From: Desulfotomaculum nigrificans DSM 574
Lineage (GTDB): Bacteria > Bacillota > Desulfotomaculia > Desulfotomaculales > Desulfotomaculaceae
NCBI RefSeq assembly: GCF_000189755.2
Contig: NZ_KI912183.1
Coordinates: 1,366,257 to 1,430,256, forward strand
Direction of reading: 5' to 3'
Length of the DNA stretch: 64,000 nt
A program made the translations under genes and the position numbers. The notes beneath the pieces were generated by a model that ran no database searches, was not told the origin of the DNA, and worked only from the letters and a program-made list of their open reading frames with translations. This document shows, in pieces, positions 27,841-52,404 of this stretch (positions within the stretch are counted from its first letter, which is position 1; every line of letters starts with the position of its first letter).

Positions 27841-27843
27841 AGA

Positions 27844-28314: not shown

Positions 28315-28345
28315 AAGCGGGCCCCCCTCCAAATTAGTAATATTA

Positions 28346-28382
28346 GTACGGTGTTGTCCTGTCAACGGAGACAACACCGTAC
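28346..28382 (-). other. Perfect 13-bp stem-loop between dctP and dctQ
   Basis: GTACGGTGTTGTC pairs with GACAACACCGTAC around an 11-base loop. No U-tract follows on the minus strand, so it is more likely an mRNA stability or processing element, or a partial terminator, that raises binding-protein output over the membrane subunits. Confidence 0.75.
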
Positions 28383-28394
28383 CGGTTCTTAACT

Positions 28395-29411: not shown

Positions 29412-29448
29412 TGTTAACGTAAACCCTCCTTAATTTAGTGGGAAACCC

Positions 29449-30468: not shown

Positions 30469-30484
30469 GTTCGTCATCTCCTAG

Positions 30485-31528: not shown

Positions 31529-31559
31529 TTTCTATTCCTCCTGTCTTATAAAATTTAGG

Positions 31560-32591: not shown

Positions 32592-32604
32592 TCTGTCACT
32601 CTCC

Positions 32605-33861: not shown

Positions 33862-33900
33862 TAAAAACCACCTTTGTTTTGTCTTGATGACCAGTGTTAT

Positions 33901-33916
33901 AGCAAGGTCCGTGCCA
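33901..33916 (-). promoter_or_regulatory. Sigma-54 (-24/-12) promoter of the sugar-acid operon
   Basis: TGGCAC-N5-TTGCT on the minus strand, a full match to the sigma-54 consensus with GG and GC twelve bases apart. Predicted transcription start about 33890. The gene upstream encodes a GAFTGA-containing sigma-54 activator. Confidence 0.88.
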
Positions 33917-33980
33917 ACCCACCGGCGGCACAAACCGACCTAATTATCACATTTTTCCCAATATAGCAAACAGTTGAATA

Positions 33981-33993
33981 TTTCAAAATGAAA
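33981..33993. promoter_or_regulatory. Candidate enhancer site 1 for the PrpR-type activator
   Basis: TTTCAAAATGAAA, inverted arms TTTCA / TGAAA with 3 bases between, centred about 98 bases upstream of the sigma-54 start. Confidence 0.55.
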
Positions 33994-33994
33994 A

Positions 33995-34030
33995 GCCCCT
34001 TTTCCCTATAAACTTCTGAGAACAAGGGGC
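33995..34030 (-). terminator. Terminator after the sigma-54 activator gene
   Basis: GCCCCTT / AAGGGGC stem with a 22-base loop, followed on the minus strand by TTTTCATTTTG. It separates the regulator transcript from the operon it controls. Confidence 0.7.
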
Positions 34031-34052
34031 GCCAAGCCTTATTATGTTTATT

Positions 34053-35969
34053 TCAATTTGTAAAAGACGTTTCATTTTGAAATCTTTTAATTTTCCTCCA
34101 CAGGGTGGTTGTACTAATGCCTAGCTTTTTAGCGGCCTCTTCCTTACTTTGGCAAGATTTTAATGTTTGCCGTATTATTTGGTCTTCTATTTCAGCCAAA
34201 GTGCCGGTCAAGTTTAAGCACCCGGCAGTCAATTTTTCTTGATCCTGCAGGGGCATAAAATTATCAGTCAATGCCTTAATATCTTCGGCTACAACCATAC
34301 TGCCATCCTTTAAAACAATTAACCGTTCCAATAAGTTTTTGAGCTCGCGAATGTTTCCCGGCCAGGTATGTTTTTGTAATGCCTGCAGGGCTTCATCAGT
34401 AAAATCAGGCAATTCAATTTGCAGTTTCTTAGCTAAGTCCCGGCTTAACACCCTGACCAGTACCGGAATATCTTCCATACGTTTCCTCAGCGGCGGTATG
34501 TTTAGTACCAAAATGCTCAGCCGGTGGTATAAATCCCGCCGGAACTTATCCTGTTTAATCAGTTCTTGTAAATTCCTGTGGGTGGCCGCAATAACCCTGA
34601 CATCAACAGGTATAACTTTGTCCCCACCTATCCGCATGATCTCTTTTTCCTGCAAGACCCGGAGCAGCCGGGCCTGAATACCGGGCGACAACTCACCAAT
34701 CTCATCCAGGAAGATGGTACCCCCGTGGGCCAACTCAAAGAGACCCTTTTTACCGCCCTTTTTGGCTCCGGTGAAGGCCCCCTCTTCGTAACCAAACAAT
34801 TCGCTTTCTAACAGACTCTCAGTTAAAGCGGCACAATTAATGGCCACAAATGGCCCGTTCTTGCGTTGGCTGGCGTTGTGGATGCCTTGAGCAAACATTT
34901 CCTTACCGGTCCCGGTTTCCCCGTTAATTAAGATAGTGGAATCCACCCGGGCAAACCTGCGGGCTTTTTCAATTGTATCCTGCATCAATGGACTGGTGGT
35001 GACCATATCCGAAAAGGAGTAGTGCGCCACCAGGCCCTTTAAATATTGCTCTTTTCTGGCCTTCTCCTCCACAGCCTGAATGTGTTTAATATCCTGCACT
35101 GTAGCCACTGCTCCCACTGTATGGCCGCTAATGACCACCGGAACCACGTTATGCACCAGGAGATTTCCTTTTACTTTACATAACTCACCAAAACGAAGTC
35201 GGCCAAACTCCAACACTTCCCGAAAGGGAATCTCAGGCAAAACCTTTTCGGCGGGCTTGCCCATAACTAAATCCCTATTTAACTGCATCATTTTTTCCGC
35301 CTCGGGGTTCATTAAAGTAATACACCCCTGCTGGTCCACCGCCACGATTCCCTCATAGGCAAACTCCAAAATAGTCTTTAATTGTTCCACCCGGGCTTGT
35401 TCCCGGCGCCGTACCACACCAATCTCCTGCGCCTCTCGAATGGCCTGGCTGATGGCCTCTTTCCCCGATGTAACCAACACCGAGGCCAGGCCATACTTTT
35501 GAGCCATGCGGATAGCCACTGCATCTCCCACCAATACATCCACACCCAGACGAATAGCCTCTTCAATGGCCTCCTGGGCTTCTGATAAATTGGCAATAAC
35601 AAGTTCATATATTTCTACGTCTAAAATATCTTCTAAACTCTTGCTGCCGTAAATTACATTTTGAAAACCAACCACACCTATTTTTTTTCCTTTTGATTTA
35701 GCCTGATTGATGGCCCTGATGATATCAAAACCGCTGATGGCTATTTCCACCACCGGCACATCAACAGATGCTCTAATGGCCGTAGCAGTACCACCCCGGC
35801 TAATAATAATTTCTGTGCTGTTTTGTACAAAATTGTTAGCTAAAGCAACTCCCTCAACCAAATCCCCGGTGGCAATGTCGATATTTTCTCCTAACTCCGC
35901 ACACACTTCGGAAGCCAGTAAGGCCAATTCTTCATAGGGTGCAATTACCGCTATTTTTAAGCCTCTCAT
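34053..35969 (-). CDS. Sigma-54-dependent enhancer-binding protein, PrpR N-terminal sensor type
   Basis: A 638-residue activator. Residues 1-190 form a PrpR_N receptor domain (ISRGGTATAIR, VGFQNVIYGS); about 200-300 is a PAS domain; 325-560 is an AAA+ domain with Walker A GETGTGKE (350-357), the sigma-54 contact loop GAFTGA (397-402) and Walker B GGTIFLDEIGEL; about 595-638 is a Fis-type helix-turn-helix. ATG 35969 follows AAGGAGACATGGAG. Placed immediately upstream of the sigma-54 promoter it presumably activates, it would respond to a sugar acid or a pathway intermediate bound by the PrpR_N domain. Confidence 0.93.
   Translation of the reverse strand: MRGLKIAVIAPYEELALLASEVCAELGENIDIATGDLVEGVALANNFVQNSTEIIISRGGTATAIRASVDVPVVEIAISGFDIIRAINQAKSKGKKIGVVGFQNVIYGSKSLEDILDVEIYELVIANLSEAQEAIEEAIRLGVDVLVGDAVAIRMAQKYGLASVLVTSGKEAISQAIREAQEIGVVRRREQARVEQLKTILEFAYEGIVAVDQQGCITLMNPEAEKMMQLNRDLVMGKPAEKVLPEIPFREVLEFGRLRFGELCKVKGNLLVHNVVPVVISGHTVGAVATVQDIKHIQAVEEKARKEQYLKGLVAHYSFSDMVTTSPLMQDTIEKARRFARVDSTILINGETGTGKEMFAQGIHNASQRKNGPFVAINCAALTESLLESELFGYEEGAFTGAKKGGKKGLFELAHGGTIFLDEIGELSPGIQARLLRVLQEKEIMRIGGDKVIPVDVRVIAATHRNLQELIKQDKFRRDLYHRLSILVLNIPPLRKRMEDIPVLVRVLSRDLAKKLQIELPDFTDEALQALQKHTWPGNIRELKNLLERLIVLKDGSMVVAEDIKALTDNFMPLQDQEKLTAGCLNLTGTLAEIEDQIIRQTLKSCQSKEEAAKKLGISTTTLWRKIKRFQNETSFTN
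34070..34082. promoter_or_regulatory. Candidate enhancer site 2 for the PrpR-type activator
   Basis: TTTCATTTTGAAA, the same inverted arms as site 1, centred about 187 bases upstream of the sigma-54 start and inside the 3' end of the activator gene. A weaker copy, TTTCAATTTGTAAA, lies at 34051-34064. Confidence 0.5.
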
Positions 35970-36107
35970 CTCCATGTCTCCTTAAGGGCTTTTGGGAACT
36001 AATTTTGACAATATTCGATCTCTTTCCTGCTTTTGAAGGGGGGAAATTATTAGTAGTTAACAGAAATGGAGGCTAAAATGACTTTATAAAAACTGTTTAT
36101 CAGCTAT

Positions 36108-36141
36108 AAAAAAAGGATTTATGGCTAAATGCCATAAACCC
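36108..36141 (-). terminator. Terminator overlapping the end of the FAH-family gene
   Basis: GGGTTTATGGC / GCCATAAATCC stem (one mismatch) with the stop codon in its loop, followed by TTTTTTT on the minus strand. Confidence 0.8.
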
Positions 36142-36889
36142 TTACATCGTTTACCATTTCTCCTAATTGGGGTCCACTTAATTTAATAACATCCCCAATG
36201 TTAAAGTTGCCACCACCCGGCGGTGTACCGGTAAGGATCACGTCCCCCGGTTCAAGAGTCATAACCCCGGAAATAAAGGCAATTAACTCCCTCACGTTAA
36301 ATATCATATCCGATGTATTGCTAAGCTGTTTCTGCTCACCGTTCACAGATACACTAATTACTGTATCATCAGGATCAATATCGGTAACAACATACGGCCC
36401 CATGGGGGTAAATGTATCAAAGGATTTTCCCTTGGTCCATGGTTTTCCTTTGATCATGTGATCTTTGGCAGTTACATCATTAGCTAAACAATATCCCAGC
36501 ACATAATCAAAAGCGGAATCAGCCGAAACATTCTTAGCCTGCTTGCCAATAATAACGGCCAGCTCAACCTCAAATGCCGGATTTTTTACAGCCGGAGGAA
36601 TTAATATACTGTCCCCGGGTCCAATTACACTGGACGGTGGTTTTAAAAATAACACCGGTTCAGCGGGAAACTCTACCCCTTTAGCCTGAGCCACAGCTTT
36701 GTAATTAAGACCAACCCCGATAACCTTGGTGGGCTTTACCGGTGGCAGAAGTTTTACTTCGCTAACCGGGTAGGATCTGTCTGTCAGGGTGTAATTATCA
36801 TAAATATTGCCTTCAATAACTCTTACTGTTTGGCCTTCAACTAAACCATAATATTCGTGACCTTCGGCTTTAAACCTGGCAAATTTCAT
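36125..36889 (-). CDS. Fumarylacetoacetate hydrolase (FAH) family protein
   Basis: A 254-residue enzyme with a short N-terminal domain and the FAH fold: IGVGLNYKAVAQAKG, FLKPPSSVIGPGDSI, the metal-binding FEVELAVIIG and YCLANDVTAKD, and VILTGTPPGGGNFNIGD. FAH proteins cleave C-C bonds or isomerise diketo acids. Following kdgK by 29 bases, it may act on a 2,4-diketo-3-deoxy or related sugar acid, as in non-phosphorylated rhamnonate and fuconate routes; this is inferred. GAGGTAACC precedes the ATG. Confidence 0.87.
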   Translation of the reverse strand: MKFARFKAEGHEYYGLVEGQTVRVIEGNIYDNYTLTDRSYPVSEVKLLPPVKPTKVIGVGLNYKAVAQAKGVEFPAEPVLFLKPPSSVIGPGDSILIPPAVKNPAFEVELAVIIGKQAKNVSADSAFDYVLGYCLANDVTAKDHMIKGKPWTKGKSFDTFTPMGPYVVTDIDPDDTVISVSVNGEQKQLSNTSDMIFNVRELIAFISGVMTLEPGDVILTGTPPGGGNFNIGDVIKLSGPQLGEMVNDVRVYGI

Positions 36890-36918
36890 TTTGGTTACCT
36901 CGCTACGCTAATTTTAAA

Positions 36919-37941
36919 TTAGCGCTGTACTCGTCCGGAGCCGTCACCGGCAGCCAGAGCTTTAACTTCACTTACGGTTACCAGGTTGACATCACCTTCA
37001 ATACTATGCTTCAAGCAGGAAGCAGCCACAGCGAATTCCAGTGCATCTTTTGAACTGTAATTATTGAGCAAGCCATAAATCAACCCGGCACCAAAGGAAT
37101 CACCGCCACCAACGCGGTCAACAATGTGGACCAGGTATTCTCTGGAGAAGTAGAAATCATTTCCGTCATATAACATGGCTGCCCATTTGTTGTCAGAAGC
37201 AGAAATACTGCCACGCAGGGTAATAGCTACTTTACTGAAGTTAAAACGTTCTTTGAGTTGCTTTGCCACATCTTTATAACCTTCATGGTTCAGTTTTCCA
37301 CTGATGATATCAGTGTCAGCGGCTTTAATGCCAAATACCTTTTCGGCATCTTCTTCGTTAGCAATGCATACGTCAACATATTCCATCAGGCCACCCATAA
37401 CCTGGCCGGCTTTTTCCGATGTCCAGAGGTTCTTACGGAAGTTCAGGTCACAGCTTACAGTTAAGCCTAAACGTTTAGCTGCCTTGCATGCTTCCAGGGC
37501 AATCTCAGCTACATTATCGCCCAGTGCCGGAGTAATACCGGTGAAATGGAACCACTCAGCCCCGGCAAAGATTTCGTCCCAGTTAAAGTCTTCCTTCCGG
37601 GCCTGGGAAATGGCAGAGTATTTACGGTCGTATACTACCTTAGAGGGACGTTGGGAGGCACCTTTTTCACAGAAATAAATGCCTAAACGCTCCCCGCCCC
37701 GGGCAATGTATTTGGTGCAAACTCCGAAACGTCTCAGGGAGTTAATAGCAGCCTGGCCGATGGGGTTATCAGGTACTTTGGTTACAAAAGCAGCATCCAC
37801 ACCAAAATTAGCCAATGATACAGCTACGTTAGCCTCACCGCCGCCATAAATGGCGGTAAATTTGTCAGCCTGCACAAAACGGAGGTATCCCTCAGGGGCC
37901 AGTCGCAGCATAATTTCTCCGAATGTTACTACCTTTGCCAT
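36919..37941 (-). CDS. kdgK: 2-keto-3-deoxygluconate kinase (PfkB family)
   Basis: A 340-residue ribokinase-type sugar kinase: N-terminal GEIMLRLAPEGYLRFVQA, substrate loop YGGGEANVAVSLANFG, NFRKNLW and the catalytic DRVGGGDSFGAGLIYGL with its aspartate base. It makes KDPG from KDG, which the next upstream gene (eda) cleaves. RBS AAGGAGAGG. Length and order eda-kdgK are typical of hexuronate/aldonate clusters. Confidence 0.94.
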   Translation of the reverse strand: MAKVVTFGEIMLRLAPEGYLRFVQADKFTAIYGGGEANVAVSLANFGVDAAFVTKVPDNPIGQAAINSLRRFGVCTKYIARGGERLGIYFCEKGASQRPSKVVYDRKYSAISQARKEDFNWDEIFAGAEWFHFTGITPALGDNVAEIALEACKAAKRLGLTVSCDLNFRKNLWTSEKAGQVMGGLMEYVDVCIANEEDAEKVFGIKAADTDIISGKLNHEGYKDVAKQLKERFNFSKVAITLRGSISASDNKWAAMLYDGNDFYFSREYLVHIVDRVGGGDSFGAGLIYGLLNNYSSKDALEFAVAASCLKHSIEGDVNLVTVSEVKALAAGDGSGRVQR

Positions 37942-37984
37942 GATGATCCTCTCCTTCTTATATTTCTTGATTATATTTAATTAA

Positions 37985-38632
37985 TTATTTAGTTCTTGCT
38001 TCTTTAATCTTGGCAATAAATTGTTGCGCTACTTCTGTTATGGATTCATAATCCCCGGTCTTAGCTCCGGCAGTTAAGTTACCACCTACACCAACTGCCA
38101 GGCAACCGTTCTTAATCCATTGACCAACATTATCTAGACTAACACCGCCGGTGGGCATCAGAGGTGCTTGTGGGAGCGGTCCTTTAACTGCTTTAATGAA
38201 GCCAGGTCCTAAAGTCTCTCCCGGGAATATTTTAATAACGTCAGCACCTGCTTCCATGGCTTCGACAATTTCTTTAATAGTCATACAGCCAGGCATCACC
38301 GGAACTTGATACCGGTTACATAATTTGATGGTTTCAAAGTTTAGAGAAGGGCTGACGATGTATTGGGCCCCGGCTAAGATAGCTGTTCTGGCAGTTTCCG
38401 GATCTAACACGGTACCTGCACCAATGATTATTTCACCAGACTTATAGATACTAGTCAGTTCTTTAATAACATCAGCGGCACCCGGTACGGTAAAGGTAAT
38501 TTCAATAGCCGCAACCCCGCCTTTTAGACAAGCATCCGCAATTTTTCGGGCCTTTTCCGGATTCTCGGCCCGTACCACGGCAACCAGGCCGCTATCCATG
38601 ATTTTCCGTAGAATCTCTACCTTTTGATGCAT
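37985..38632 (-). CDS. eda: KDPG/KHG aldolase
   Basis: A 215-residue class I aldolase splitting KDPG into pyruvate and glyceraldehyde-3-phosphate. The catalytic glutamate E44 is in AIEITFT and the Schiff-base lysine K134 in DVIKIFPGE; the phosphate-binding PTGGVSLDN follows. RBS GGAGGCGAT before ATG 38632. Preceded by an inverted repeat at 38676-38695 and by the GntR regulator gene. Confidence 0.95.
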
Positions 38633-38675
38633 GCAATCGCCTCCACATTAGTTGCAGGTTTTTATATGAACAGAA

Positions 38676-38695
38676 TAAATGCAATACTGCATTTA
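38676..38695. promoter_or_regulatory. Inverted-repeat operator candidate upstream of eda
   Basis: TAAATGCA / TGCATTTA, 8-bp arms around ATAC, 44 bases before the eda start. A partial copy, ATGCAATACTG, recurs at 39602-39612 upstream of the GntR gene. Confidence 0.5.
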
Positions 38696-38736
38696 AACTC
38701 TGTTACATCCCATAACCACTTAGCGTTCCCCACAAA

Positions 38737-39441
38737 TTACCTGTTACCATAAAAGTTTAAAAAGTCTTTTTTGGCTGACTCTATATGTTGGTTTAGTATA
38801 ATCTCAAATTCAACATCATCTTGATTGGCCAAAGCTTCTATTAAACGGTGATGCTCCGGATGATAAAGCTTAAGTTTTTCTAAAACATAACCGTATGTTC
38901 CTCTTCCGGCAAACCAAAGGGCATTTAATGAATCATACATCTTTATGATCTGATTATTTCCCAAAGCAACTATGAGGCTGCGATGAAATTCTATATCCAA
39001 ATTATTATATTTAAAGTAATCAAAGTTATCTTCCAGTAAAACATGATCCATTTCAATTAATATTTCTTTCATTACATGGAGTTGTTTTGTATCTAAATTC
39101 CGAATCAATTTCTTGCCGGCCCAAACTTCAAACATCAATCGTGCATCTAACAATTCAATAACTTTATCTACTTCAAAAGTAGATACAAAAGTTCCCTTCC
39201 TGGGGACAATATCCAAAAGTCCTTCCATACTTAATCTATTGAAGGCTTCTTTCACCGGAGAACGACTTACCCCATAGGCTTCGGCTATTTGAAATATATC
39301 TAATTTTTCACCGGGCTTTAGTTCCTGAGTATAGATGGCTTTTTTTAAGGATTCATAAACCTTATCCGCCAATTGTTTATGTTCAATAGGAGAAAAATTA
39401 GTATTATCGTTAGCTGTGGGTTTGCTAAAATCGACGCTCAT
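38737..39441 (-). CDS. GntR-family (FadR subfamily) transcriptional regulator
   Basis: A 234-residue regulator: winged helix (about residues 20-90, ending PVKEAFNRLSMEGLLDIVPR then KGTFVS) and an all-helical FCD effector domain with the metal-binding-type residues of sugar-acid sensors. Upstream of eda-kdgK-FAH on the same strand, it most likely represses them and itself in the absence of a sugar acid. Its own promoter carries a 24-bp palindrome. Confidence 0.92.
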   Translation of the reverse strand: MSVDFSKPTANDNTNFSPIEHKQLADKVYESLKKAIYTQELKPGEKLDIFQIAEAYGVSRSPVKEAFNRLSMEGLLDIVPRKGTFVSTFEVDKVIELLDARLMFEVWAGKKLIRNLDTKQLHVMKEILIEMDHVLLEDNFDYFKYNNLDIEFHRSLIVALGNNQIIKMYDSLNALWFAGRGTYGYVLEKLKLYHPEHHRLIEALANQDDVEFEIILNQHIESAKKDFLNFYGNR

Positions 39442-41944: not shown

Positions 41945-42715
41945 TTAGCCTTTGTAACCTAACGCACGGGAAATTTGATTTGCAGTTTCGATTAGAGAAA
42001 ATTTCAAATTTGATTCAATAGCTTCAATAGTAATTCGCGGTGCCGGGCCAGAGATACTGATAGCGGCCACCACTCTACCATTGTGATCTTTAAGAGGTGC
42101 TGCAACACAGCGGACCCCTTCTTCTGCCTCCATATCATCAATGGCATAGCCATTAGCCCTGATGATATTCAGTTGATTAATCAAAGCTTTTTTATCTGTA
42201 ATGGTTCTCTCTGTCAGTTTTGGCATTCCATGTTTAGTAATTATTTTATCAATCTCCTCCTGCGACAGATCGGACAAAAGACACTTGCCCATACCGGTAC
42301 TGTGCAAGTAACTAAGAGAACCTACCTGGGAAACTAGCCTGACCGAATAATGGCCGTCTAATTTGTCTAAATATAAGCCACGTCCCTTGTGAATGATGCT
42401 TAAGAAGACTGTTTCCTTAGTAATATCATTTAATCTTTTAAGGTAAGGACGTGCTACTTTTCTAATGTCTAGCTCTTCCTGCACTTGAGCGCCTAATTGA
42501 AGGAATTTAACCCCCAGTTTATAACCCTTCTTTTCATCTAATTCGATATAACCCCATGATTCCAGGCTGGAAAGTATCCGGTATGTCGTAGCTTTAGGTA
42601 AATCTGCCAGTTGACTAAGTGATTTTAAAGTAAGCGTTTCTCGGGAATTTGCTATTATATCTACTAACATAAATGCTCTATCAAGTGACTGAATTTTGCC
42701 CTTTAACTCTTTCAC
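41945..42715 (-). CDS. IclR-family transcriptional regulator (KdgR-like)
   Basis: A 256-residue regulator: winged helix-turn-helix (residues 8-70, LKSLSQLADLPKATTYRILS) and IclR effector domain with VSQVGSLSYLHSTGMGKCLL and EAEEGVRCVAAPL. GTG start at 42715 with GGAAGGAGG. It closes the cluster containing the second TRAP system, and a palindrome at 44037 could be its operator. Regulators of this group sense keto-deoxy sugar acids in other bacteria. Confidence 0.92.
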   Translation of the reverse strand: MKELKGKIQSLDRAFMLVDIIANSRETLTLKSLSQLADLPKATTYRILSSLESWGYIELDEKKGYKLGVKFLQLGAQVQEELDIRKVARPYLKRLNDITKETVFLSIIHKGRGLYLDKLDGHYSVRLVSQVGSLSYLHSTGMGKCLLSDLSQEEIDKIITKHGMPKLTERTITDKKALINQLNIIRANGYAIDDMEAEEGVRCVAAPLKDHNGRVVAAISISGPAPRITIEAIESNLKFSLIETANQISRALGYKG

Positions 42716-42918: not shown

Positions 42919-44004
42919 TCAGAAATTTTCACAAGATAAGCGATCAACTAATTTGATTGCTTCTAAAACCATTTGACTGGTTACATTTACGGGCATGTTC
43001 TTCATATCATTGGCGTTGGCCGCAACTTCGGCAACTTTTTGCAAATCCGCTTCGGTAAGACTGGCGATTTCTGATAATTTAGTGGGTACACCACAGCCTC
43101 TGGCCAACTTAATTTCTTCTATAATTTCAGCTTCGCTACGTCCTTCCAGGGCCAGCAGACAGAGATTACCAAAACCTACTAACAGGCCATGTCCCAAGTC
43201 ATGGGCCGCAGGAATATTAGTAAAACCAAAGTAAACTGAGTGAGCTGCCGCACCCCGGCATTTGTCGCCACCAAGAATAGATGACATACCGGCATAAAAA
43301 ATTATGGCATCTATGGTATACTCCAGCGCATCAGTTACCTCTTGTTTTTCAATGGCGTCTTTAGCTCCGGGGCCAAACTTTTGGATTACTTCGTAGCAAA
43401 TTCTACCGTTATTAATACCCCCCATGGTCCAACTGCTGGCAGGTATTTTACTGGTGGTTGCCCTTAGTTCATACCATTTGGCCAAGGTGTCTCCCATACC
43501 GGCGGCCAGCCATTTTTCAGGTGCTTTGGCGATCACTGCCGTGTCAACAAATACACCTACCGGGCATGCCGATTGGTTAGTATTTTCTACATATTTCCCA
43601 TGCTCATCGTGAATAATTGAGAGTGGCGTGAGAGCAGCACAGGTGGCCGCAATGGTAGGTACAGTAATACATGGGATGTTATTTTTATAAGCAGCGGCCT
43701 TCCCGGTATCTAAAGCTTTACCGCCACCAACTGTTATAATTAATTCAGCACCTTTATTTAAAGCAATTTCACTTATTTTAGATATATTATCCCAGGTGCA
43801 CTCACCGCCATACCATTCAATGCCGACAACCTGCACCCCATGCTGCTTTAAGCTTGCTACAAGTTGCTCTTGTACTGCCTGTAAAGCCTGTTTACCTCCA
43901 ATAAGTAGAACCTTTTGAGCTTGCTTACTGCAGAACTCGCCTACACGTTCTAAAACTCCGGCTCCCCTTATATAAGCAGCCGGTATTCTAACGTCAGAAA
44001 TCAT
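42919..44004 (-). CDS. Iron-containing dehydrogenase, glycerol/hydroxycarboxylate dehydrogenase-like
   Basis: A 361-residue GldA-superfamily protein: NAD loop VGGGKALDTGKAAA, VPTIAATCAALTPLSIIHDE, metal ligands in GMGDTLAKWYE (Asp), GAAAHSVYFG (His) and DLGHGLLVGFG (His). PTIAATCAA with TPLS matches the hydroxycarboxylate dehydrogenase HcxA (YbdH) group rather than true glycerol dehydrogenases, which carry PTIASTDAP; this favours a 2-oxo/2-hydroxy acid as substrate. ATG 44004 follows CGAGGTG. Confidence 0.85.
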   Translation of the reverse strand: MISDVRIPAAYIRGAGVLERVGEFCSKQAQKVLLIGGKQALQAVQEQLVASLKQHGVQVVGIEWYGGECTWDNISKISEIALNKGAELIITVGGGKALDTGKAAAYKNNIPCITVPTIAATCAALTPLSIIHDEHGKYVENTNQSACPVGVFVDTAVIAKAPEKWLAAGMGDTLAKWYELRATTSKIPASSWTMGGINNGRICYEVIQKFGPGAKDAIEKQEVTDALEYTIDAIIFYAGMSSILGGDKCRGAAAHSVYFGFTNIPAAHDLGHGLLVGFGNLCLLALEGRSEAEIIEEIKLARGCGVPTKLSEIASLTEADLQKVAEVAANANDMKNMPVNVTSQMVLEAIKLVDRLSCENF

Positions 44005-44036
44005 AATCAACACCTCGTTTTACAATATAAAATGCC

Positions 44037-44096: not shown

Positions 44097-44921
44097 CTAA
44101 TTTTTATCAGTATAGCTGGATTGGTTTAGATGGATTAATCCAAAACCTCCATCCACCCTTAGAGTAATTCCGTTAATGGACGCAGTTTTATCGGCATCGG
44201 CTAAATATAGCACATGGGGTGCAATCTCCTGGGCTGATAAGAAGCGATGTTGAGCCGTTAAGCTAACTACTTCTTGCCCTCTGGCGGTATATGTGCCATC
44301 TTCATTGGTTAATAATTTCCGGTTTTGTTCACCAATGGTAAAACCAACGGCCAGGTTATTAACTCTACCCAGACCATAATGGCCATAGAGGTAGGCCATG
44401 CTCTTAGCCAGGTTTTCCACAGCAGCAAAGGCGGCTGAATAATGAACCACCCGGGCTATGGGCACAAAACCAGACATGGAAGTGATATTTACTACACTGC
44501 CCTGATAACCGGTCCTTTGTAGATAAGCCATATAGAGTTGCATGGCATACCACTTGGAGGTATAGTTATTATTTAACATTTTTACCGGCGCTTCCGGGTC
44601 CATGTTAATGAAGCCTTCTAAATCGTTAGCTGTAGCATCCGGCGAATTACCACCTGAACCGTTGATTACAATATCAATTTGCTTAAATCTTTTTTCTGTC
44701 TCTTCAAAAACCTTGGCCATTTGGGCATAGTCGGATGCATCCGCATTAAGGGCGATGGCGTTACTACCGCCCCGCCCGTTAACTTTTTCCGCTAATACAT
44801 GGGCTGACTTACCCCGGCTAACAATTACTAAATTCATACCTTCTTCAGCAAATAATGTTGTATAACCCTCGGCAATGGCACCGGCACCAAATAAAATCGC
44901 CGTTTTACCCTTTAAGCTCAC
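44097..44921 (-). CDS. SDR-family oxidoreductase, UxuB/fructuronate reductase-like, with altered active site
   Basis: A 274-residue Rossmann-fold protein resembling Gram-positive D-mannonate oxidoreductases by length and context (UxuA and TRAP genes nearby). The catalytic serine is present (NITSMSG), and the tyrosine is in HYSAAFAAVENLAKS, but the lysine four places after the tyrosine is phenylalanine (TTT codon). The cofactor loop is GAGAIAEG instead of TGxxxGIG. So either chemistry differs or the protein is not a classical SDR reductase. The C-terminal VDGGFGLIHL is normal. Confidence 0.8.
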   Translation of the reverse strand: MSLKGKTAILFGAGAIAEGYTTLFAEEGMNLVIVSRGKSAHVLAEKVNGRGGSNAIALNADASDYAQMAKVFEETEKRFKQIDIVINGSGGNSPDATANDLEGFINMDPEAPVKMLNNNYTSKWYAMQLYMAYLQRTGYQGSVVNITSMSGFVPIARVVHYSAAFAAVENLAKSMAYLYGHYGLGRVNNLAVGFTIGEQNRKLLTNEDGTYTARGQEVVSLTAQHRFLSAQEIAPHVLYLADADKTASINGITLRVDGGFGLIHLNQSSYTDKN

Positions 44922-44983: not shown

Positions 44984-46258
44984 CTATTTCACAAGCAGAC
45001 TGGGTAAAAACAAGGTTAATGGAGGTACATAGGTTACTAAAGCTAAAATAATTAAGTTAACAATCAGAAAAGGCATCACAGCTTTACTGATCTGAACCAA
45101 AGAAATCCTTCCGATACTGGAGGTAATGTATAAGCAAACACCCACCGGCGGAGTAAGCAAGCCAAGTACCAGGTTTAACACACAGATAATGGCAAAGTGA
45201 ATGGGGTCAACACCAACACTGGTAGCCACTTTTAATAGTACAGGGAACAAGATGATTAAAGCCGCGATGGTTTCCATAAACATGCCCACAAATAACAGCA
45301 AGAGGTTGACCAGCAGCAGGATCAGGTACTTGTTTTCGGTAATGCCTAACATAAAGTCAGCTATCATTTGAGGGATTTGTTCACTCGATAAAATCCAAGC
45401 AAACACGTTGGCAAAGGCAACCAAGAGCATGATTGAGGCAGTCTGTACCGCTGACTCTACAAAAATTTTAGGCAAATCCTTCCATTTCAGCTCTTTATAG
45501 ATGAATAAACCTACCACCAGGGCATAAACCACAGCTATAATGGCAGCTTCCGTGGGTGTAAAGGTGCCGCCAATAATCCCCCACAGAACAACTACCAACA
45601 TCATGACAGCCCAGAAAGCACCAATAAAGGTTTTAACAATTTGTTTCAGGGAACTTCGCTCGCCCTTGGGATATCCTCGTTTTACCGCCAGATAATAAGC
45701 CATCGCGGCTGTACCCAGACCAATCAGTAAGCCTGGTATAGCACCGGCAATAAATAGCTTACTTACCGACAGACCGGTTAGGGTACCGGCGATAATCATA
45801 GGTAAACTGGGAGGAATAATCGGGCCGGTGGTGGAGGCCGATGCGGTAACTGCGGAGGCAAACTCAGCATCGTAGCCATCCTTTTTCATGGCCGGAATCA
45901 TCACACTACCAATACTGGCAGCGTCCGCCGCAGCGGTACCAGAAATACCAGCAAATACCATCGAGGCTCCAACATCTGCCAGAGCCAAACCGCCTCTAAT
46001 ATGACCCACTAAAGAATTGGAAAATTTTACAATTCGTTCGGTGATACCGCCACCACCCATCAGGTTACCGGCCAGAATGAAGCCCGGTATACAGAGCAAC
46101 ACGAAGGAATCAATACCAGAGAACATTTTTTGCGGTACGATATCTAAAGGAATACCTGCTGCGAGTAGATAAGCAAAAGAAGCCAAGCCTAAGGAAAATG
46201 CCACCGGTACACCAATAAACAGTGCTACCAAAAAAACTCCGAATAATATAAAAACCAC
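44984..46258 (-). CDS. dctM: TRAP transporter large membrane subunit, system 2
   Basis: A 424-residue DctM homologue of the system-1 protein, with PVAFSLGLASFAYLLAAGIP and GISGTAAADAASIGSVMIPAM. About twelve membrane segments. GTG start at 46258 directly follows the dctQ stop codon, behind GGAGGGCGTT. Partner of the following binding protein. Confidence 0.95.
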   Translation of the reverse strand: MVFILFGVFLVALFIGVPVAFSLGLASFAYLLAAGIPLDIVPQKMFSGIDSFVLLCIPGFILAGNLMGGGGITERIVKFSNSLVGHIRGGLALADVGASMVFAGISGTAAADAASIGSVMIPAMKKDGYDAEFASAVTASASTTGPIIPPSLPMIIAGTLTGLSVSKLFIAGAIPGLLIGLGTAAMAYYLAVKRGYPKGERSSLKQIVKTFIGAFWAVMMLVVVLWGIIGGTFTPTEAAIIAVVYALVVGLFIYKELKWKDLPKIFVESAVQTASIMLLVAFANVFAWILSSEQIPQMIADFMLGITENKYLILLLVNLLLLFVGMFMETIAALIILFPVLLKVATSVGVDPIHFAIICVLNLVLGLLTPPVGVCLYITSSIGRISLVQISKAVMPFLIVNLIILALVTYVPPLTLFLPSLLVK

Positions 46259-46741
46259 CTAACGCCCTCCTCCCTGGCAAAGTCCCTTAATAGTTTGAAA
46301 AATCTGTATTACCAGGTATATAGATATACAAATTGCCACGAAAGTAATACTGGCCTGAGGAATCGACATGGGGATGATCAGAGTTGGAGATGTTTGAATA
46401 GAACCTAGTTTAATAAAGTCAATACCTTTATAGGCAATAACCATCATAAAACCAACCAGAACCAGATCAATCAAAATTAATAATAAACTTTTTACTGTTT
46501 TAGGTAACAACCCAATTAATGTGTCCACAGTTGCAAAAGCCTTATCCCTGACGGCCAAACCGCCGGCAAAACAAATCATGTAGATGAACAGGTATCTGGC
46601 CGCTTCTTCAGTCCAGGAAGGCGCCTGGGGCAAGGCAAAGCGAGCAAAGACCTGCAGCACCACTACAACAATAAATCCCACTATACACAGCAGGGCACCG
46701 AATTCCAAAACCTTATCTAAAATTAGTTTCAGTTTTTTCAT
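46259..46741 (-). CDS. dctQ: TRAP transporter small membrane subunit, system 2
   Basis: A 160-residue DctQ protein with four transmembrane segments and the signature PSWTEEAARYLFIYMICFAGG. Stop abuts the dctM start, so translation is coupled. It lies downstream of dctP, separated by a 13-bp hairpin. Confidence 0.93.
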   Translation of the reverse strand: MKKLKLILDKVLEFGALLCIVGFIVVVVLQVFARFALPQAPSWTEEAARYLFIYMICFAGGLAVRDKAFATVDTLIGLLPKTVKSLLLILIDLVLVGFMMVIAYKGIDFIKLGSIQTSPTLIIPMSIPQASITFVAICISIYLVIQIFQTIKGLCQGGGR

Positions 46742-46815: not shown

Positions 46816-47847
46816 TTACTTGGTGTTAACAATTTGTTCGTAGAGGGCTTTTTGCTCGGGGGTTAAGACTTTCAGCACAGCTTCCTTAGCTTTAGCCTCA
46901 AAAGCGGCTTTATCAACATCAACAAAAGTCATACCCTTGTCTTTTAGAGTTTGTTCTTGTTTAGCCTCATCTTTTACAAACAGCTCATGTTCATAGTTTT
47001 GTAAATCTTTGGCGCAATCAAGGAATACCTTTTGTAAATCCTTGGGCATAGAATCAAACTGTTTTTTACCAATTACTACATAGATCCACCCACGAACGTG
47101 CTCAGTTTTATTTACATATTTTTGAACTTCATAGAAACCACCACTGTTAATCAGAGCTAAGGGGTTTTCCTGAGCTTCAATGGTATGTTGTTGCAGACCG
47201 GTAAATACCTCGGAGAAAGCCATGGGAGTGGGTTTAGCACCTAAAGCTTTCCATGTTTCAACAAACAGAGGAACGTTTGGTACGCGCATCAATAATCCTT
47301 TTAAGTCATCAGGTGATTTGATGGGTCTGTTAGAAGTTAGATTACGAGGCCCTCTTTCAAACCAGGCAATAGGCATAAGACCTGTCTTTTCAGTAATTTG
47401 TTTTTCAATTTGATCACCTATTGGACCATCGGCAACTTTCTTCAGGTGTTCAGAATCTCTAATAGCATAAGGAGTAGCCATCAGAGCTGCATAGGGGGCC
47501 CAGTTTTGCAGAGATTCACCGGTAATAGTCATGTCAACAGTTCCGGCTTGGATTCCCTGAATCAGATCCATTTCTTTACCTAATGACTCGTTGGGATATA
47601 TCTTAACTTCAATTCTGCCATTGGATTTTTCTTTAACATCTTTGGCAAACTTGGTTAAAGCAATATGCCAGGGATCTTGTTCGTTAGCTAAGTGACCAAG
47701 TTTAAAAACAAATTCCGGTTTTTTGGCTTCACCACTGTTGTTGGATTTTGAAGCTGTGTCTTTAGAGCCACCGCAGCCAACAGCGGCAACCATTAAAAAG
47801 ATGCTGACTAAACCAAGAATTGCGAACTTAAGAAACGGTTTTTTCAC
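46816..47847 (-). CDS. dctP: TRAP transporter substrate-binding lipoprotein, system 2
   Basis: A 343-residue DctP receptor: signal peptide with lipobox AAVGC (acylated Cys about residue 25), then FKLGHLANEQDPWHIALTKF, LGKEMDLIQGIQAGTVD, WFERGPRNLTSNRPI and LLMRVPNVPLFVETWKALGA, which contains the carboxylate-binding arginine. Neighbouring uxuA, RspB-like and LarA-like genes suggest a hexonate ligand such as mannonate, gluconate or galactonate; this is inferred. Confidence 0.94.
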   Translation of the reverse strand: MKKPFLKFAILGLVSIFLMVAAVGCGGSKDTASKSNNSGEAKKPEFVFKLGHLANEQDPWHIALTKFAKDVKEKSNGRIEVKIYPNESLGKEMDLIQGIQAGTVDMTITGESLQNWAPYAALMATPYAIRDSEHLKKVADGPIGDQIEKQITEKTGLMPIAWFERGPRNLTSNRPIKSPDDLKGLLMRVPNVPLFVETWKALGAKPTPMAFSEVFTGLQQHTIEAQENPLALINSGGFYEVQKYVNKTEHVRGWIYVVIGKKQFDSMPKDLQKVFLDCAKDLQNYEHELFVKDEAKQEQTLKDKGMTFVDVDKAAFEAKAKEAVLKVLTPEQKALYEQIVNTK

Positions 47848-47971: not shown

Positions 47972-48991
47972 TTAATTAAATAATAAAACTATTTTGCATA
48001 CGCTTTGGGGATCAGTTTCAATTAAATCGATAGCCTTTTTTACTTCAGTAAAATGAAACTGATGCGATATCAACACTTCCGGGCGCAATTCTCTATTATT
48101 GAACCACTCAATTACTTTGGGAAACTGCTTAGCATGCAGCCTGGAACCCCTAATATCCAGCTCATTCTTGGTTATGTCGAGCTGAGCAATGTTTGATGCT
48201 GTTTCAGTAAACCCAAGCACCACGATTCTACCGGCAGGTGAGGTAACCTTTATTGCCTCTTCCAATAGTTTCGGCAAGCCTACAGCTTCAACCACTACAG
48301 TTACCCCGAGGCCGTTTGTTTCTTTAAAAACTATGTCCGGTAAATCTTGTTTCGATGTATTGACAACAACATCGGCCCCCAGTTCCTTGGCTAACTCCAA
48401 ACGCTTGTCCAGCAAATCTGTAATAATACACTTGGCACCAATTTTCTTAACCACCTGCAGAACTATTAAGCCTATTGGCCCCGCCCCTAGCACCAATACA
48501 GTATCAGCTGCGGTTATTTCCCCGCGGGAACTAACCTGAGCGCCAATAGTGAAAGGTTCTATCAATGCTGCTTCCGGCCAACTTAAATCTTTTGAAATTT
48601 GATAAACACTTTTACCGGGTACAACCACATATTCGGCAAAACCACCATCAGTATGAACACCACGAACTTTTAAGGATTTACATACATTGTTTCTGCCGAT
48701 ACGGCAGGGGTAACATTCACCACAGCTTACCACCGGGTCAATGGCCACATGGTCACCAACTTTTAAATTGTCTACTTCTACTCCAACCTCAACAATCTCA
48801 CCTACAACCTCATGGCCAATCACCCTGGGGTAAGTGGCTACCGGGTTTGTACCGTGATAAATGTGAATGTCTGAACCGCAGATACCGGCCGCCTTAACCT
48901 TTACCAGCACATCTTGCGGGCCCACATTATCAGGTTTGGCCACTTCCTGTAGTTCTAAATTCCCCGGGGTATTAACTTTGATAACTTTCAT
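47972..48991 (-). CDS. Zinc-dependent dehydrogenase, RspB / L-galactonate 5-dehydrogenase-like
   Basis: A 339-residue MDR enzyme. AGICGSDIHIYHGTNPVATY followed by PRVIGHE, and DPVVSCGECYPCRIGRNNVC, closely follow E. coli RspB. Catalytic zinc ligands C38, H60 and E61; structural cysteines C90, C93, C96 and C104; NAD site VLGAGPIGLIVLQV. Enzymes of this group oxidise hexonates at C5 (L-galactonate, L-gulonate) to keto-uronates. ATG 48991 follows TGGGAGGTCG. Confidence 0.87.
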   Translation of the reverse strand: MKVIKVNTPGNLELQEVAKPDNVGPQDVLVKVKAAGICGSDIHIYHGTNPVATYPRVIGHEVVGEIVEVGVEVDNLKVGDHVAIDPVVSCGECYPCRIGRNNVCKSLKVRGVHTDGGFAEYVVVPGKSVYQISKDLSWPEAALIEPFTIGAQVSSRGEITAADTVLVLGAGPIGLIVLQVVKKIGAKCIITDLLDKRLELAKELGADVVVNTSKQDLPDIVFKETNGLGVTVVVEAVGLPKLLEEAIKVTSPAGRIVVLGFTETASNIAQLDITKNELDIRGSRLHAKQFPKVIEWFNNRELRPEVLISHQFHFTEVKKAIDLIETDPQSVCKIVLLFN

Positions 48992-49203
48992 GGAACGACC
49001 TCCCAACAAACTATAGAATCCTTTGTAAAAAATGAATTTTATGAATTTAGTAAACCAGAGCCATCGATACCATCCTACGCATTATCGCATCAGTAATCTC
49101 AATGAGCCCTAATGTCTCATATTATGAAATCACAGTTCATGTTTTAAATATAGAATATTTGATAATTATCGACTTTCCATTTTAAAGGTCGAATATATTA
49201 CAT

Positions 49204-50478
49204 TTATTTATAGTATTTTTTCTCCAATACCGGCATTATTTCTCCGCCGTGCTGAAAAACCCCAATTTTAGCATCAGGGCCCACCATTTTAAACGCTTGC
49301 TCCAAAGCTTGGCTCGGGGTATCTGCGTGTATGATACCAACCTTTTCTTTGTCAGCCTTAGGAATACCCGGACTTACCATAATACATGGTTTTTGCTTAA
49401 TTACCCGGCCCACATGCACCAAATGGGCGGCCACTGTTAAATCCTTAATTTTACCTTTGTTTACTTTATCCTGTACTTCTTCAAAAGTGCCGTAACCTTC
49501 TTCCAGTATAGTTTTATGCACCCGGGACACTCCCTCGGGACAAGGTGAAACAAGTATAATCACACCGCCTTTTCTTACAGCCAAGTCGGCAGAATATATG
49601 CCTTTAGCGGCCTGCCAGAGTTCTATATCGGCAGGATATGAGTCGTAAACAACAATATCAAATAGTTGCGGTATTTTAACCCCATACACCTGCTGGGCTA
49701 ATTCTACACCCTTGCGGTGAGCTGCTACCAAATCACCTACGAAAACACCAACCAACCGGCCTTTACCGTCTTGTACCGCATTAATGATTACCTTAAGGCC
49801 ACTTTCTCTGGCAACTTCCTCCATCTCCAGTCTTACGGAATTATCTGCTTTGCCCATAATATCGCAGCCCTCATATTTTGCACTAAGCCAGTGGGTTTGA
49901 CCAGTGGTTTCCGCCCCACATATTCCAGGTTGGACAATCTTACCCCCACCGCCATATCCGGCAACAACATGGGGCACAATATGCCCGATACCGATGGTAA
50001 AATCAGCCTCCAGAATAGCCTTGTTAATTATAATTTTGGTCCCATTTGGGGTGGTGCCGGTTTCCACTAAGGACTCTGTATCCTGCCAATGATGATCAAC
50101 TATTTTGTAGTTTTCGACAATTTCTTTGCCATACTTTTTAATTTTTTCTTCATTGGTCATGGGACGATGGGTACCCAAAGCAACCATAAGGGTTATATTT
50201 TCTTTTTTAACATTTACCAGTTCATTCATTAATTCAGGAAGAATTATATCTGTAGGCGTTGTTCTGGTAATATCGTCCACTAATATCAGGACCTTGTCAT
50301 CAGGCTTGACCATCTGATGAATAGGCGGTGTTCCAATAGGGTTTTGGAAAGCTTCCTGGATAATCTGTTTTTCAGACTTTTCTAATTTAACCTCAGTTGG
50401 TGAATAAATACCTACCAGATTTTGATCTGGAATCTCCAGAGGTTCAATATCAGCATAATGTTCAAATCTGATTAACAT
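49204..50478 (-). CDS. larA: LarA-family nickel-pincer racemase/epimerase homologue
   Basis: A 424-residue LarA protein. The residues that hold the nickel-pincer nucleotide in Lactobacillus LarA all have counterparts at conserved spacing: D69, R72, H104, H170, K180 (covalent attachment) and H196, in DDITRTTP, GTHRPM, GHIVPHVVAGYGGGGKIVQ and TTGQTHW. LarA homologues include lactate racemase and several sugar-acid 2-epimerases; in this uxuA cluster a hexonate 2-epimerase is likely, but that is inferred. No larB, larC or larE is in the window. ATG 50478 follows AAAGGAGC. Confidence 0.9.
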   Translation of the reverse strand: MLIRFEHYADIEPLEIPDQNLVGIYSPTEVKLEKSEKQIIQEAFQNPIGTPPIHQMVKPDDKVLILVDDITRTTPTDIILPELMNELVNVKKENITLMVALGTHRPMTNEEKIKKYGKEIVENYKIVDHHWQDTESLVETGTTPNGTKIIINKAILEADFTIGIGHIVPHVVAGYGGGGKIVQPGICGAETTGQTHWLSAKYEGCDIMGKADNSVRLEMEEVARESGLKVIINAVQDGKGRLVGVFVGDLVAAHRKGVELAQQVYGVKIPQLFDIVVYDSYPADIELWQAAKGIYSADLAVRKGGVIILVSPCPEGVSRVHKTILEEGYGTFEEVQDKVNKGKIKDLTVAAHLVHVGRVIKQKPCIMVSPGIPKADKEKVGIIHADTPSQALEQAFKMVGPDAKIGVFQHGGEIMPVLEKKYYK

Positions 50479-50643: not shown

Positions 50644-51321
50644 TCACCTAGCCTCTTTAAAATAATTTGGATTGGTCTTTTTTAATTCTTCTTTATCGAT
50701 AAGAACCAATTTCAGATGATTAGTTATAATTTCCTCACCAAGTCGAGGGTCCTTTCTTTTGATTGCGTCAACAATTTGTTGATGCTGACACAGGAGATGG
50801 CCCCAGTCATAATTTGTAGCCAATCGAAGTACTCTAATTCGCTTAAAATGTGTATTCATCGGTTGCATTGCCAGCCATATTCTTGCCTTGTTACACCCTT
50901 CAAAAATGGTGCGGTGAAGTTCTTCGTCTAAATCGAATACCCTTTTATAGTCTTGGTGATATGTACATAACTCTTGGTTTTTTAAGTTAATTTCAAGTGA
51001 AAGTAATTTATCTTCAGGAAAATTTTCACAGGCCAACTTGATAACAGCTTTTTCAAGTTGCTCTCGCATAAATCTTGCATCTTCAACCAGTGCCAAATCA
51101 ATTAAAGAAACCCTGGTACCCTTTTGGGGATATATTTCTAGTAACCCCTCTTGGGACAATTTAAGAAAAGCCTCTCTTACCGGAGTACGGCTAACCTGAA
51201 ACTTCTCCGAAATTTCCTTCTCGGAAAGACTTGTACCAGGTTTAAGCTCTAAATCTAAAATTTGACTTTTAAGCAGTTGATATACATATTCCCGGGTAGG
51301 ACTGGCATTTATTCGAGGCAT
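50644..51321 (-). CDS. GntR-family (FadR subfamily) transcriptional regulator 2
   Basis: A 225-residue regulator with a winged helix (SEKEISEKFQVSRTPVREAF, LKLSQEGLLEIYPQKGTRVS) and an FCD domain with aspartate and histidines for metal-dependent ligand binding. It lies 9 bases after uxuA on the same strand and probably represses uxuA from the palindrome at 52458-52475. Confidence 0.92.
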   Translation of the reverse strand: MPRINASPTREYVYQLLKSQILDLELKPGTSLSEKEISEKFQVSRTPVREAFLKLSQEGLLEIYPQKGTRVSLIDLALVEDARFMREQLEKAVIKLACENFPEDKLLSLEINLKNQELCTYHQDYKRVFDLDEELHRTIFEGCNKARIWLAMQPMNTHFKRIRVLRLATNYDWGHLLCQHQQIVDAIKRKDPRLGEEIITNHLKLVLIDKEELKKTNPNYFKEAR

Positions 51322-51330
51322 CGTACTTAC

Positions 51331-52404
51331 CTAGCTTTCTTCTTTCTTTAATTTTTCTAAGGTATCCCAGATACCCCATATATACATAATTCCTAAAGCC
51401 CGGTCATAGAGCCCATATCCCGGTCTACATTTCTCATTCCAAATATGTCTCCCATGATCCGGCCTGGCATATCCGGTAAAGTTGTTTTCATGATAGGCTT
51501 TAACAATATCTACAATATCTAATGAACCATCACAGGCACGGTGAGATGTCTCAACAAAGTCACCATTCTCATATATTCTTACATTTCTAATGTGAGCAAA
51601 AGCAATTCTATCCGCAAATTCTCTGACCATTTCCCCTATATTGTTTTCAGGGTTTGCCCCAAGTGAACCACTGCACAGTGTCAAACAATTGTATGGACTG
51701 TCAACAAGTTTTAGAAATCTCCTAAGATTCTCTTTATTGGTAATAATTCTTGGCAATCCAAAAACAGACCACGGCGGATCATCGGGATGTATGGCCATTT
51801 TAATGTCATTAACTTCAGCTACCGGAATAATTTGTTCCAAGAAATATTTAAGGTTATGCCAAAGATCTTCCTCAGTTACATTTTTATAAGCTTCAAAGAG
51901 ACTGGAGAGTTTACTTAATCTCTCTGGCTCCCACCCCGGCATAGTAAAGTCGGGGTTTTTAGCAATTTTATTCACCAAATCAATTGGATCCATATGGTCT
52001 ACCTTGGAAGTTTCGTAAAAAAGGGCAGTTGATCCGTCTTCCAGCTTTTTGGCAAGGTCTGTACGAGTCCAATCAAATACAGGCATAAAGTTATAGCAAA
52101 TTACTTTAACTCCAACCTTAGCCAGCTTTTCAATGGTTCTTTTATAATTTTCAATATATTTATCCCTAGTTGGCAGACCCAGTTTAATATCCTCGTGGAC
52201 ATTTACACTTTCCACAACATCAACGTTAAAACCGTATTCTTCTGCTTGTCTCTTTACTTCAAGTATTTTCTCCATGGGCCACTCTTCGCCAGCCGGCATA
52301 TCGTGTAAGGCCCAAACAATCCCTTCCACACCAGGGATTTGCCTGATCTGGTCAAGGGTAACACTATCGTTACCTTTACCATACCATCTAAACACCATTC
52401 TCAT
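51331..52404 (-). CDS. uxuA: Mannonate dehydratase
   Basis: A 357-residue UxuA protein that converts D-mannonate to 2-keto-3-deoxygluconate using a divalent metal. Typical UxuA motifs: MVFRWYGKGNDSVTLDQIRQ, GIVWALHDMPAGEEW, MAIHPDDPPWSVFGLPRI, HIRNVR and YARPDHGRHIW. Its product is the substrate of kdgK, 13 kb away in the same region. The weak ribosome binding site (AAAGT) before ATG 52404 is unusual for this window. Confidence 0.96.
   Translation of the reverse strand: MRMVFRWYGKGNDSVTLDQIRQIPGVEGIVWALHDMPAGEEWPMEKILEVKRQAEEYGFNVDVVESVNVHEDIKLGLPTRDKYIENYKRTIEKLAKVGVKVICYNFMPVFDWTRTDLAKKLEDGSTALFYETSKVDHMDPIDLVNKIAKNPDFTMPGWEPERLSKLSSLFEAYKNVTEEDLWHNLKYFLEQIIPVAEVNDIKMAIHPDDPPWSVFGLPRIITNKENLRRFLKLVDSPYNCLTLCSGSLGANPENNIGEMVREFADRIAFAHIRNVRIYENGDFVETSHRACDGSLDIVDIVKAYHENNFTGYARPDHGRHIWNEKCRPGYGLYDRALGIMYIWGIWDTLEKLKKEES

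Follow-up and report, generated by a model that had tools for sequence, protein, structure and literature searches.

Organization of the locus

The LarA homologue under study (the window LarAH) is encoded by an open reading frame at exactly positions 49204-50478 on the minus strand of the window (the whole stretch of 64,000 nucleotides that was analysed), with an ATG start and 424 amino acids. The surrounding genes lie on the same strand and are transcribed in the order uxuA, gntR, larA homologue, rspB-like gene, TRAP P, Q, and M genes, SDR gene, gldA-like gene, and IclR regulator gene. The gene had originally been described from the sequence as lying between an RspB-like dehydrogenase and gntR-uxuA, and this was the arrangement found, with the rspB-like gene downstream and gntR and uxuA upstream. 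The features of the cluster, with the kdgA and kinase genes of the same window, were as follows.

51331..52404, minus strand: uxuA, D-mannonate dehydratase; PRK03906 510 bits (cut-off 191), TIGR00695 448 bits (cut-off 199.55); closest solved structure 1tz9, a mannonate dehydratase
50644..51321, minus strand: GntR-family regulator; weak matches to several GntR subfamilies, all below cut-off
49204..50478, minus strand: LarA-superfamily protein (group A, defined below), candidate NPN-dependent hexonate C2-epimerase, from its Lar_N domain, pocket signature, tree, and model
47972..49009, minus strand: RspB-like Zn-dependent dehydrogenase; PRK10083 399.6 bits (cut-off 376); closest solved structure 4ilk, rspB
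46816..47847, minus strand: TRAP solute-binding protein (DctP family); TIGR00787 over cut-off
46259..46741, minus strand: TRAP small permease (DctQ-like), between the P and M subunits; TRAPQ homologues occur in similar clusters
44984..46258, minus strand: TRAP large permease (DctM); TIGR00786 445 bits (cut-off 268)
44097..44921, minus strand: SDR dehydrogenase, kin of UxuB-type D-mannonate oxidoreductase; PRK08277 192 bits, below the cut-off of 281
42919..44013, minus strand: GldA-like iron-containing dehydrogenase; PRK09423 279 bits, below the cut-off of 336
41945..42715, minus strand: IclR/KdgR-like regulator; BhcR 210 bits and KdgR 172 bits, both below cut-offs
37985..38632, minus strand: kdgA, KDPG/KHG aldolase; TIGR01182 190 bits (cut-off 156)
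36919..37941, minus strand: PfkB-family kinase, likely KdgK (KDG kinase); NF041633 605 bits (cut-off 700), KDG kinase model 238 bits

The RspB-like protein is a candidate L-gulonate/L-idonate 5-dehydrogenase. The solute-binding protein was 56% identical to 4pcd and 34% identical to 4pbq, a solute-binding protein of H. influenzae. We take the ligands of the 4PC9 and 4PCD structures to be D-mannonate and an aldonate; 4PBQ is a complex with L-gulonate (PMC5788505). The kdgA product was the sole match to the Aldolase family (PF01081) in the genome, and the PfkB kinase matched the kinase half of the aldolase/kinase fusion described by NF041633. A second acid-sugar block was observed at window positions 26578-39441 (minus strand). 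It contained a TRAP transporter, two zinc dehydrogenases, a PdxA-like protein, a sigma-54 activator, a DUF1537 kinase (D-threonate kinase-like), a FAH-like hydrolase, the KdgK-like kinase, KdgA, and a GntR regulator, which suggests a large acid-sugar catabolic island around this region.

The encoded protein is a member of the LarA superfamily

Profile search identified a Lar_N domain (PF09861) in the window LarAH at 209.7 bits (cut-off 23.3), and the LarA-family profile matched the protein at an E value of about 1e-95. Its best PDB matches were malate and lactate racemases, with Mar2 and LarA the closest solved relatives by sequence. An AlphaFold2 model (pLDDT 95) aligned with lactate racemase 8ezf at Z 50.7 over 404 residues and with the broad-spectrum Isosphaera pallida enzyme (9EIA) at Z 50.6. 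Against LarA, the Z score was about 50 at 29% identity, and against T. maritima GntE2 (4NAR) it was 38.8 at 24% identity. The Z score of about 41 against malate racemase Mar2 may be lowered by the extended conformation of the apo Mar2 structure (PMC7583248). Given this E value, the racemase matches in the PDB, and model Z scores of about 50, the window LarAH is a member of the LarA superfamily and chance resemblance is excluded.

Residues D69, R72, H104, H170, K180, and H196 of the window LarAH aligned with LarA D72, R75, H108, H174, K184, and H200 and were invariant among its closest homologues. All six had been listed in the original prediction, which assigned them to cofactor ligation at spacings identical to those of lactate racemase. 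Their presence was confirmed. In published work on LarA, however, R75, K184, and H200 bind the cofactor, whereas D72, H108, H174, and K298 take part in catalysis (PMC7583248), so a cofactor role for all six does not hold. The spacings also agreed except for the interval from the arginine to the following histidine, which is 32 in the window LarAH versus 33 in LarA. One residue had been overlooked: K292 is the counterpart of LarA K298. By alignment, both the cofactor set (R72, K180, H196) and the catalytic set (D69, H104, H170, K292) are therefore complete.

The window LarAH belongs to a lineage outside the racemase clade

No curated cut-off of an NCBIfam LarA-family model was reached by the window LarAH. 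Its highest score was with the malate racemase model (LarAH6, NF052593; 321 bits, cut-off 500), followed by the models for lactate racemase (LarA, NF033504; 295 bits, cut-off 460), LarAH10 (275 bits, cut-off 540), and the hexonate epimerases (group 18, NF052594; 109 bits, cut-off 500). Among 249 genomes, it was the top match (108 bits) below the hexonate-epimerase family proper.

An alignment-based scan of genome contigs identified homologues at 46-53% identity, while a single-sequence scan gave none; these homologues and the window LarAH are termed group A. Their hosts included Moorella, other Bacillota, Spirochaetales, Desulfobacterales, and a Candidatus Aerophobetes MAG, among others. No match to the window LarAH was found at E<=1e-60 in three other sampled genomes of its own genus, and given this patchy occurrence horizontal transfer of the gene is likely.

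A carefully built tree covered 64 proteins, a set without the HGR, Mar1, and GntE1 sequences. LarA, Mar2, LarAH10, and the broad-spectrum I. pallida enzyme formed one clade (100/100) and group 18 with GntE2 formed another (100/100). Group A lay outside both, with a 100/98 branch separating the racemase side. Forcing the window LarAH into the LAR/MAR/LarAH10 clade was rejected (AU p=0.011); its placement with group 18 and GntE2 was not rejected (AU p=0.35), although in the best tree it lay outside. Grouping with true lactate racemases, which would have spoken against the original prediction, was thus not observed. By sequence, group A is a lineage spread over several phyla, with the tested racemases on one side and the hexonate epimerases (GntE/group 18) on the other. 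It might coincide with a group left unassigned among the 25 of PMC7583248. If it is a lineage of hexonate 2-epimerases, it could be ancestral, linking racemases to GntEs, or gluconate epimerisation could have arisen in it independently.

The substrate pocket resembles that of hexonate epimerases

The substrate-specificity positions of the LarA family have been defined (PMC7583248, PMC11770544). The positions compared, in LarA numbering, were F175, F176, Y294, Q295, V297, W358, T359, A360, and I362, with the following residues in each group.

Window LarAH: V V W Q A A H L H (own numbering V171, V172, W288, Q289, A291, A351, H352, L353, H355)
Group A: mostly R V W Q A A H L H
Group 18: E V W L N A H L H
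GntE2 of T. maritima: E S W T G A H V N
LarA proteins: F F Y Q V W E/T/Q S/F I
Mar2: Y K Y Q Q H K A V

W294, A358, H359, L360, and H362 were common to group A and group 18 and largely to GntE2, and were not found in LarA, LarAH10, or Mar2. The corresponding helix-14 motif A-A-H-L-x-H had the same distribution and did not occur in racemases; because the alignment is gapped around helix 14, its register was set from the A-A-H core. At positions 175, 176, 358, and 359, where lactate racemases carry F, F, W, and E/Q, the window LarAH has V, V, A, and H, matching three of the four GntE/hexonate residues (E, V, A, H). The exception is position 175, in the loop next to the catalytic histidine. GntE has Glu here, the window LarAH has Val, and 14 of 16 group-A proteins have Arg; the substrate could therefore differ from that of GntE.

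Lactate racemase identity was thus ruled out by the missed NF033504 cut-off, the missing F, F, W, and E/Q residues, and the position outside the clade with its AU test. Malate racemase identity was ruled out by the missed NF052593 cut-off, the His rather than Lys at 359, and the same AU test.

Most group-A loci lie near hexonate genes, and group-18 enzymes occupy the slot of the window LarAH in related operons

Gene neighbourhoods were compared for at least one member of a hexonate gene set (UxuA, KdgK, KdgA, FGGY kinase, IlvD/Edd, UxaC, UxaA, D-2-hydroxyacid dehydrogenase) within 6 kb. Such a gene was present at 12/15 group-A loci, 11/15 group-18 loci, 4/10 LarAH10 loci, 4/15 loci of intermediate relatives, and 0/10 lactate racemase loci. 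Comparison of group A with LarA and LarAH10 together gave a Fisher p of 0.0006, a value that is biased because some reference neighbour families came from group-A loci and is indicative only. The remaining three group-A loci (L061, L064, L077) had no core hexonate gene within 6 kb, and PMC7583248 cautions that LarAH activity cannot in every case be predicted from neighbouring genes.

A D-2-hydroxyacid dehydrogenase gene was near 10 of the 15 group-A loci. The dehydratases nearby varied, being UxuA in the window, UxaA-like at L067, and IlvD/Edd at L035, L038, L062, and L065, and a DgoK gene was found near L063. At L033, L037, L038, and L062, the group-A gene stood beside kinase or aldolase genes rather than an RspB-like dehydrogenase. 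Among the LarAH10 family, loci L171, L172, and L173 lay near UxaA-like and TRAP genes, with IlvD/Edd also in L171 and L173; these neighbours fit the published action of LarAH10 on D-gluconate. A tandem of a group-18 hexonate epimerase and a second, unassigned LarA homologue was observed in L048 (8444-9751, 9738-11072). An operon of GntR, UxuB-type SDR, group-18 LarAH, FGGY kinase, 2-hydroxyacid dehydrogenase, KdgA, and TRAP genes was conserved in four genomes (L153-L156), its 2-hydroxyacid dehydrogenase being possibly a 2-ketogluconate reductase.

Clusters homologous to that of the window were found by searching genomes with the window UxuA and comparing the matches with group-18 positions. 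Two of them (L137, L138) contained, in one operon, TRAP Q-M, RspB, 2-hydroxyacid dehydrogenase, FGGY kinase, a group-18 LarAH, TRAP P, UxuA, and GntR. Identity to the window proteins was 54% for RspB, 53% for TRAP P, 55-56% for UxuA, and 43% for GntR, and the slot of the window LarAH was filled by the group-18 enzyme (608 bits, cut-off 500). A third cluster (L142) comprised TRAP, RspB (46%), UxuA, and KdgA together with an SDR that is genuinely of the UxuB type (437 bits, cut-off 281), and it had no LarA homologue. The shared core is similar to the L-gulonate pathway validated in H. influenzae (PMC5788505). The LarA-family enzyme is thus an add-on to a gulonate/mannonate operon, with two separate LarA lineages filling the slot. 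We regard this slot replacement as the strongest evidence for the function of the window LarAH.

Cofactor genes are encoded elsewhere in the genome

The window lies on a single 3.05-Mb contig that encodes two Lar_N proteins. The cofactor genes larB, larC, and larE had been expected outside the window, and a genome search located all three there: LarE scored 327 bits (cut-off 150), LarB 304 bits (cut-off 175), and a full-length LarC 133 bits for LarC1 (cut-off 90) and 149 bits for LarC2 (cut-off 50). These matches over curated cut-offs rule out absence of the cofactor genes from the genome. The larE and larB genes lie with a LarC1-only ORF and a neighbouring NiCoT-like transporter, at a distance of about 1.3 Mb from the window. 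This stand-alone LarC1 ORF (L055:8882-9670; C1:26882-27670) lacks LarC2, ends in the His-rich tail HLNPTEHKHTGPKHNEHRH, and is followed by a decayed larC fragment with stops (L055, about 12160-12440). The full-length LarC gene is about 2.25 Mb from the LarC1-only ORF.

The second Lar_N protein of the genome (L049:9734-10987, minus strand) scored 534.7 bits, over the malate racemase (LarAH6) cut-off, and this malate-racemase-type homologue lies away from sugar genes. QmoAB-like and AprA-like proteins, read by eye at L049:15149-19999, suggest a Desulfotomaculum-type sulfate reducer as the host.

Predicted function and alternative explanations

UxuA, the KdgK-like kinase, and KdgA are all encoded within the window. 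In the genome, no UxaC, Edd, or FGGY gluconokinase was found and no GntK exceeded its cut-off; the sole IlvD/Edd protein was IlvD, and the sole full FGGY match was GlpK. Because gluconokinase, Edd, and UxaC were not detected while UxuA, the KdgK-like kinase, and KdgA were present, C2-epimerisation to D-mannonate followed by UxuA would be the only gluconate route visible in a search that covered UxaC, IlvD/Edd, FGGY kinases, and GntK.

The residues, fold, cofactor genes, pathway genes, lineage, pocket signature, and neighbourhoods of the window LarAH are all read from sequence. From these data, we predict that it is an NPN-dependent 2-hydroxyacid epimerase acting on a C6 aldonate, most likely the D-gluconate/D-mannonate pair (probability about 0.6). 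NPN would be made by LarB, LarE, and LarC, encoded outside the window, and held by K180, H196, and R72. H104 and H170 would in turn remove and return the hydroxyl proton, while NPN would take and then return the C2 hydride, inverting C2. With D-gluconate and D-mannonate as the probable substrate pair, net flow in this genome would run from gluconate to mannonate. Mannonate would then be converted to 2-keto-3-deoxygluconate by UxuA, phosphorylated to KDPG by the KdgK-like kinase, and cleaved to pyruvate and glyceraldehyde 3-phosphate by KdgA. In relatives with FGGY kinases and IlvD/Edd, flow may run in the reverse direction, as proposed for T. maritima GntE2 (PMC7583248).

The original prediction of a hexonate C2-epimerase feeding UxuA was supported, with the pocket, neighbours, slot, and undetected gluconokinase and Edd all pointing to such an epimerase. 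The feeding of UxuA would be particular to this genome: a UxuA match at E<=1e-60 was found in 0/6 sampled group-A genomes, which rules out that group A always feeds UxuA.

Four alternatives were considered. In the first, which is unlikely but carries appreciable weight, an enzyme of the same class would act on another hexonate, converting L-idonate to L-gulonate; the RspB-like dehydrogenase would then form D-fructuronate and an SDR D-mannonate for UxuA. In a variant acting one step later, 5-keto-D-gluconate would itself be converted to D-fructuronate. On stereochemical grounds, both L-idonate/L-gulonate and 5-keto-gluconate/fructuronate differ only at C2, and their C2-C4 configurations match those of gluconate/mannonate. 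The cluster genes resemble those of the validated H. influenzae L-gulonate pathway (GulPQM, GulD, UxuB, UxuA, KdgK, KdgA; PMC5788505), the rspB-like gene is directly downstream of the window LarAH gene, and the solute-binding protein has its 34% identity to the L-gulonate binder 4PBQ. Since UxaC was not found, fructuronate for the SDR would have to come from an RspB-like or 5-keto-type source, and the replacement of Glu by Arg or Val next to the catalytic histidine may be a sign of this substrate difference. However, the window SDR fell under the D-mannonate oxidoreductase cut-off, the four group-A loci that adjoin kinase or aldolase genes do so in place of an RspB-like dehydrogenase, and L-idonate was not found among the substrates given in two LarAH surveys.

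It is improbable that the substrate is instead another acid sugar (such as altronate/allonate or galactonate/talonate) or an aldarate, with group A made up of enzymes with locus-specific substrates. The locus-to-locus variation in dehydratases, the DgoK gene near L063, and the loop residue unlike that of GntE would fit such a reading, but the presence of UxuA in the window cluster indicates mannonate in particular, and apart from the loop residue the pocket has the signature of D-mannonate/D-gluconate enzymes. A racemase of short 2-hydroxyacids (lactate, malate, hydroxybutyrate) merely located in a sugar-acid operon is very improbable: the malate racemase model gave the best NCBIfam score and Mar2 and LarA are the closest solved relatives, but every racemase cut-off was missed, neither the Mar2 Lys at 359 nor the LarA F-F-W residues are present, the racemase clade was rejected, and another protein of this genome passes the malate racemase cut-off. 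Finally, the truncated LarC1 and decayed larC beside larE-larB could mean that cofactor assembly is impaired and the enzyme inactive in this strain, but a second, full-length LarC elsewhere in the genome makes this scarcely credible.

Under the preferred reading, a D-gluconate/D-mannonate epimerase, the activity class is already known from GntE, and it is the group-A lineage and its slot replacement that look new. Group A as a whole may, although the odds run somewhat against it, be an undescribed hexonate 2-epimerase lineage with a racemase-side backbone and a GntE-type pocket, swapped with group 18 in the same uxuA operon. If the epimerase assignment is true, it would give a function to a widespread nickel-pincer branch whose tested members are covered by no NCBIfam model, and anaerobes without gluconokinase and Edd could use gluconate via mannonate and UxuA. 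The helix-14 motif and the Trp close to the catalytic Lys may then allow specificity to be read whatever the overall sequence similarity, and many other LarA homologues could be tested in this way.

Comparison with known systems

GntE1 and GntE2 are D-gluconate 2-epimerases of LarAH19/20 (PMC7583248), and LarAH15 has the same activity (PMC11770544). The kcat/KM of GntE2 is 11 s-1 mM-1 (PMC7583248). The window LarAH resembles GntE1 and GntE2 in its NPN-dependent epimerase architecture, W294/A358/H359 pocket, and sugar-acid context. However, it belongs to another sequence lineage and has Val, as most of group A has Arg, in place of the GntE loop Glu. With the 'putative hexonate epimerase' of NF052594 (LarAH group 18), it shares V176, W294, A358, H359, L360, and H362 and the same slot in homologous uxuA clusters; group 18 differs in E175, N297, and L295, where the window LarAH and group A have V/R, A, and Q.

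LarAH10 of Megasphaera elsdenii, a LarA homologue from outside the GntE lineage, is reported to act as a gluconate 2-epimerase, with D-gluconate among its 16 substrates (PMC11770544). In the best tree the window LarAH likewise lies outside that lineage, with such activity predicted, but the LarAH10 family falls inside the racemase clade and has another pocket, whereas the window LarAH is outside that clade.

The window cluster has in common with the H. influenzae gul operon a TRAP transporter, a Zn dehydrogenase, UxuA, a KDG-kinase-like protein, a KDPG aldolase, and an SDR in the role of UxuB (PMC5788505); the pathway steps in the window cluster are assigned by homology. Candidates for each gene of the gul-uxu set (TRAP, GulD-like, UxuB-like, UxuA, KdgK, KdgA) are present in the window by homology, with UxuA and KdgA over cut-off and the SDR below the UxuB cut-off. 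To this set the window cluster, in an unrelated host, adds a LarA-family enzyme.
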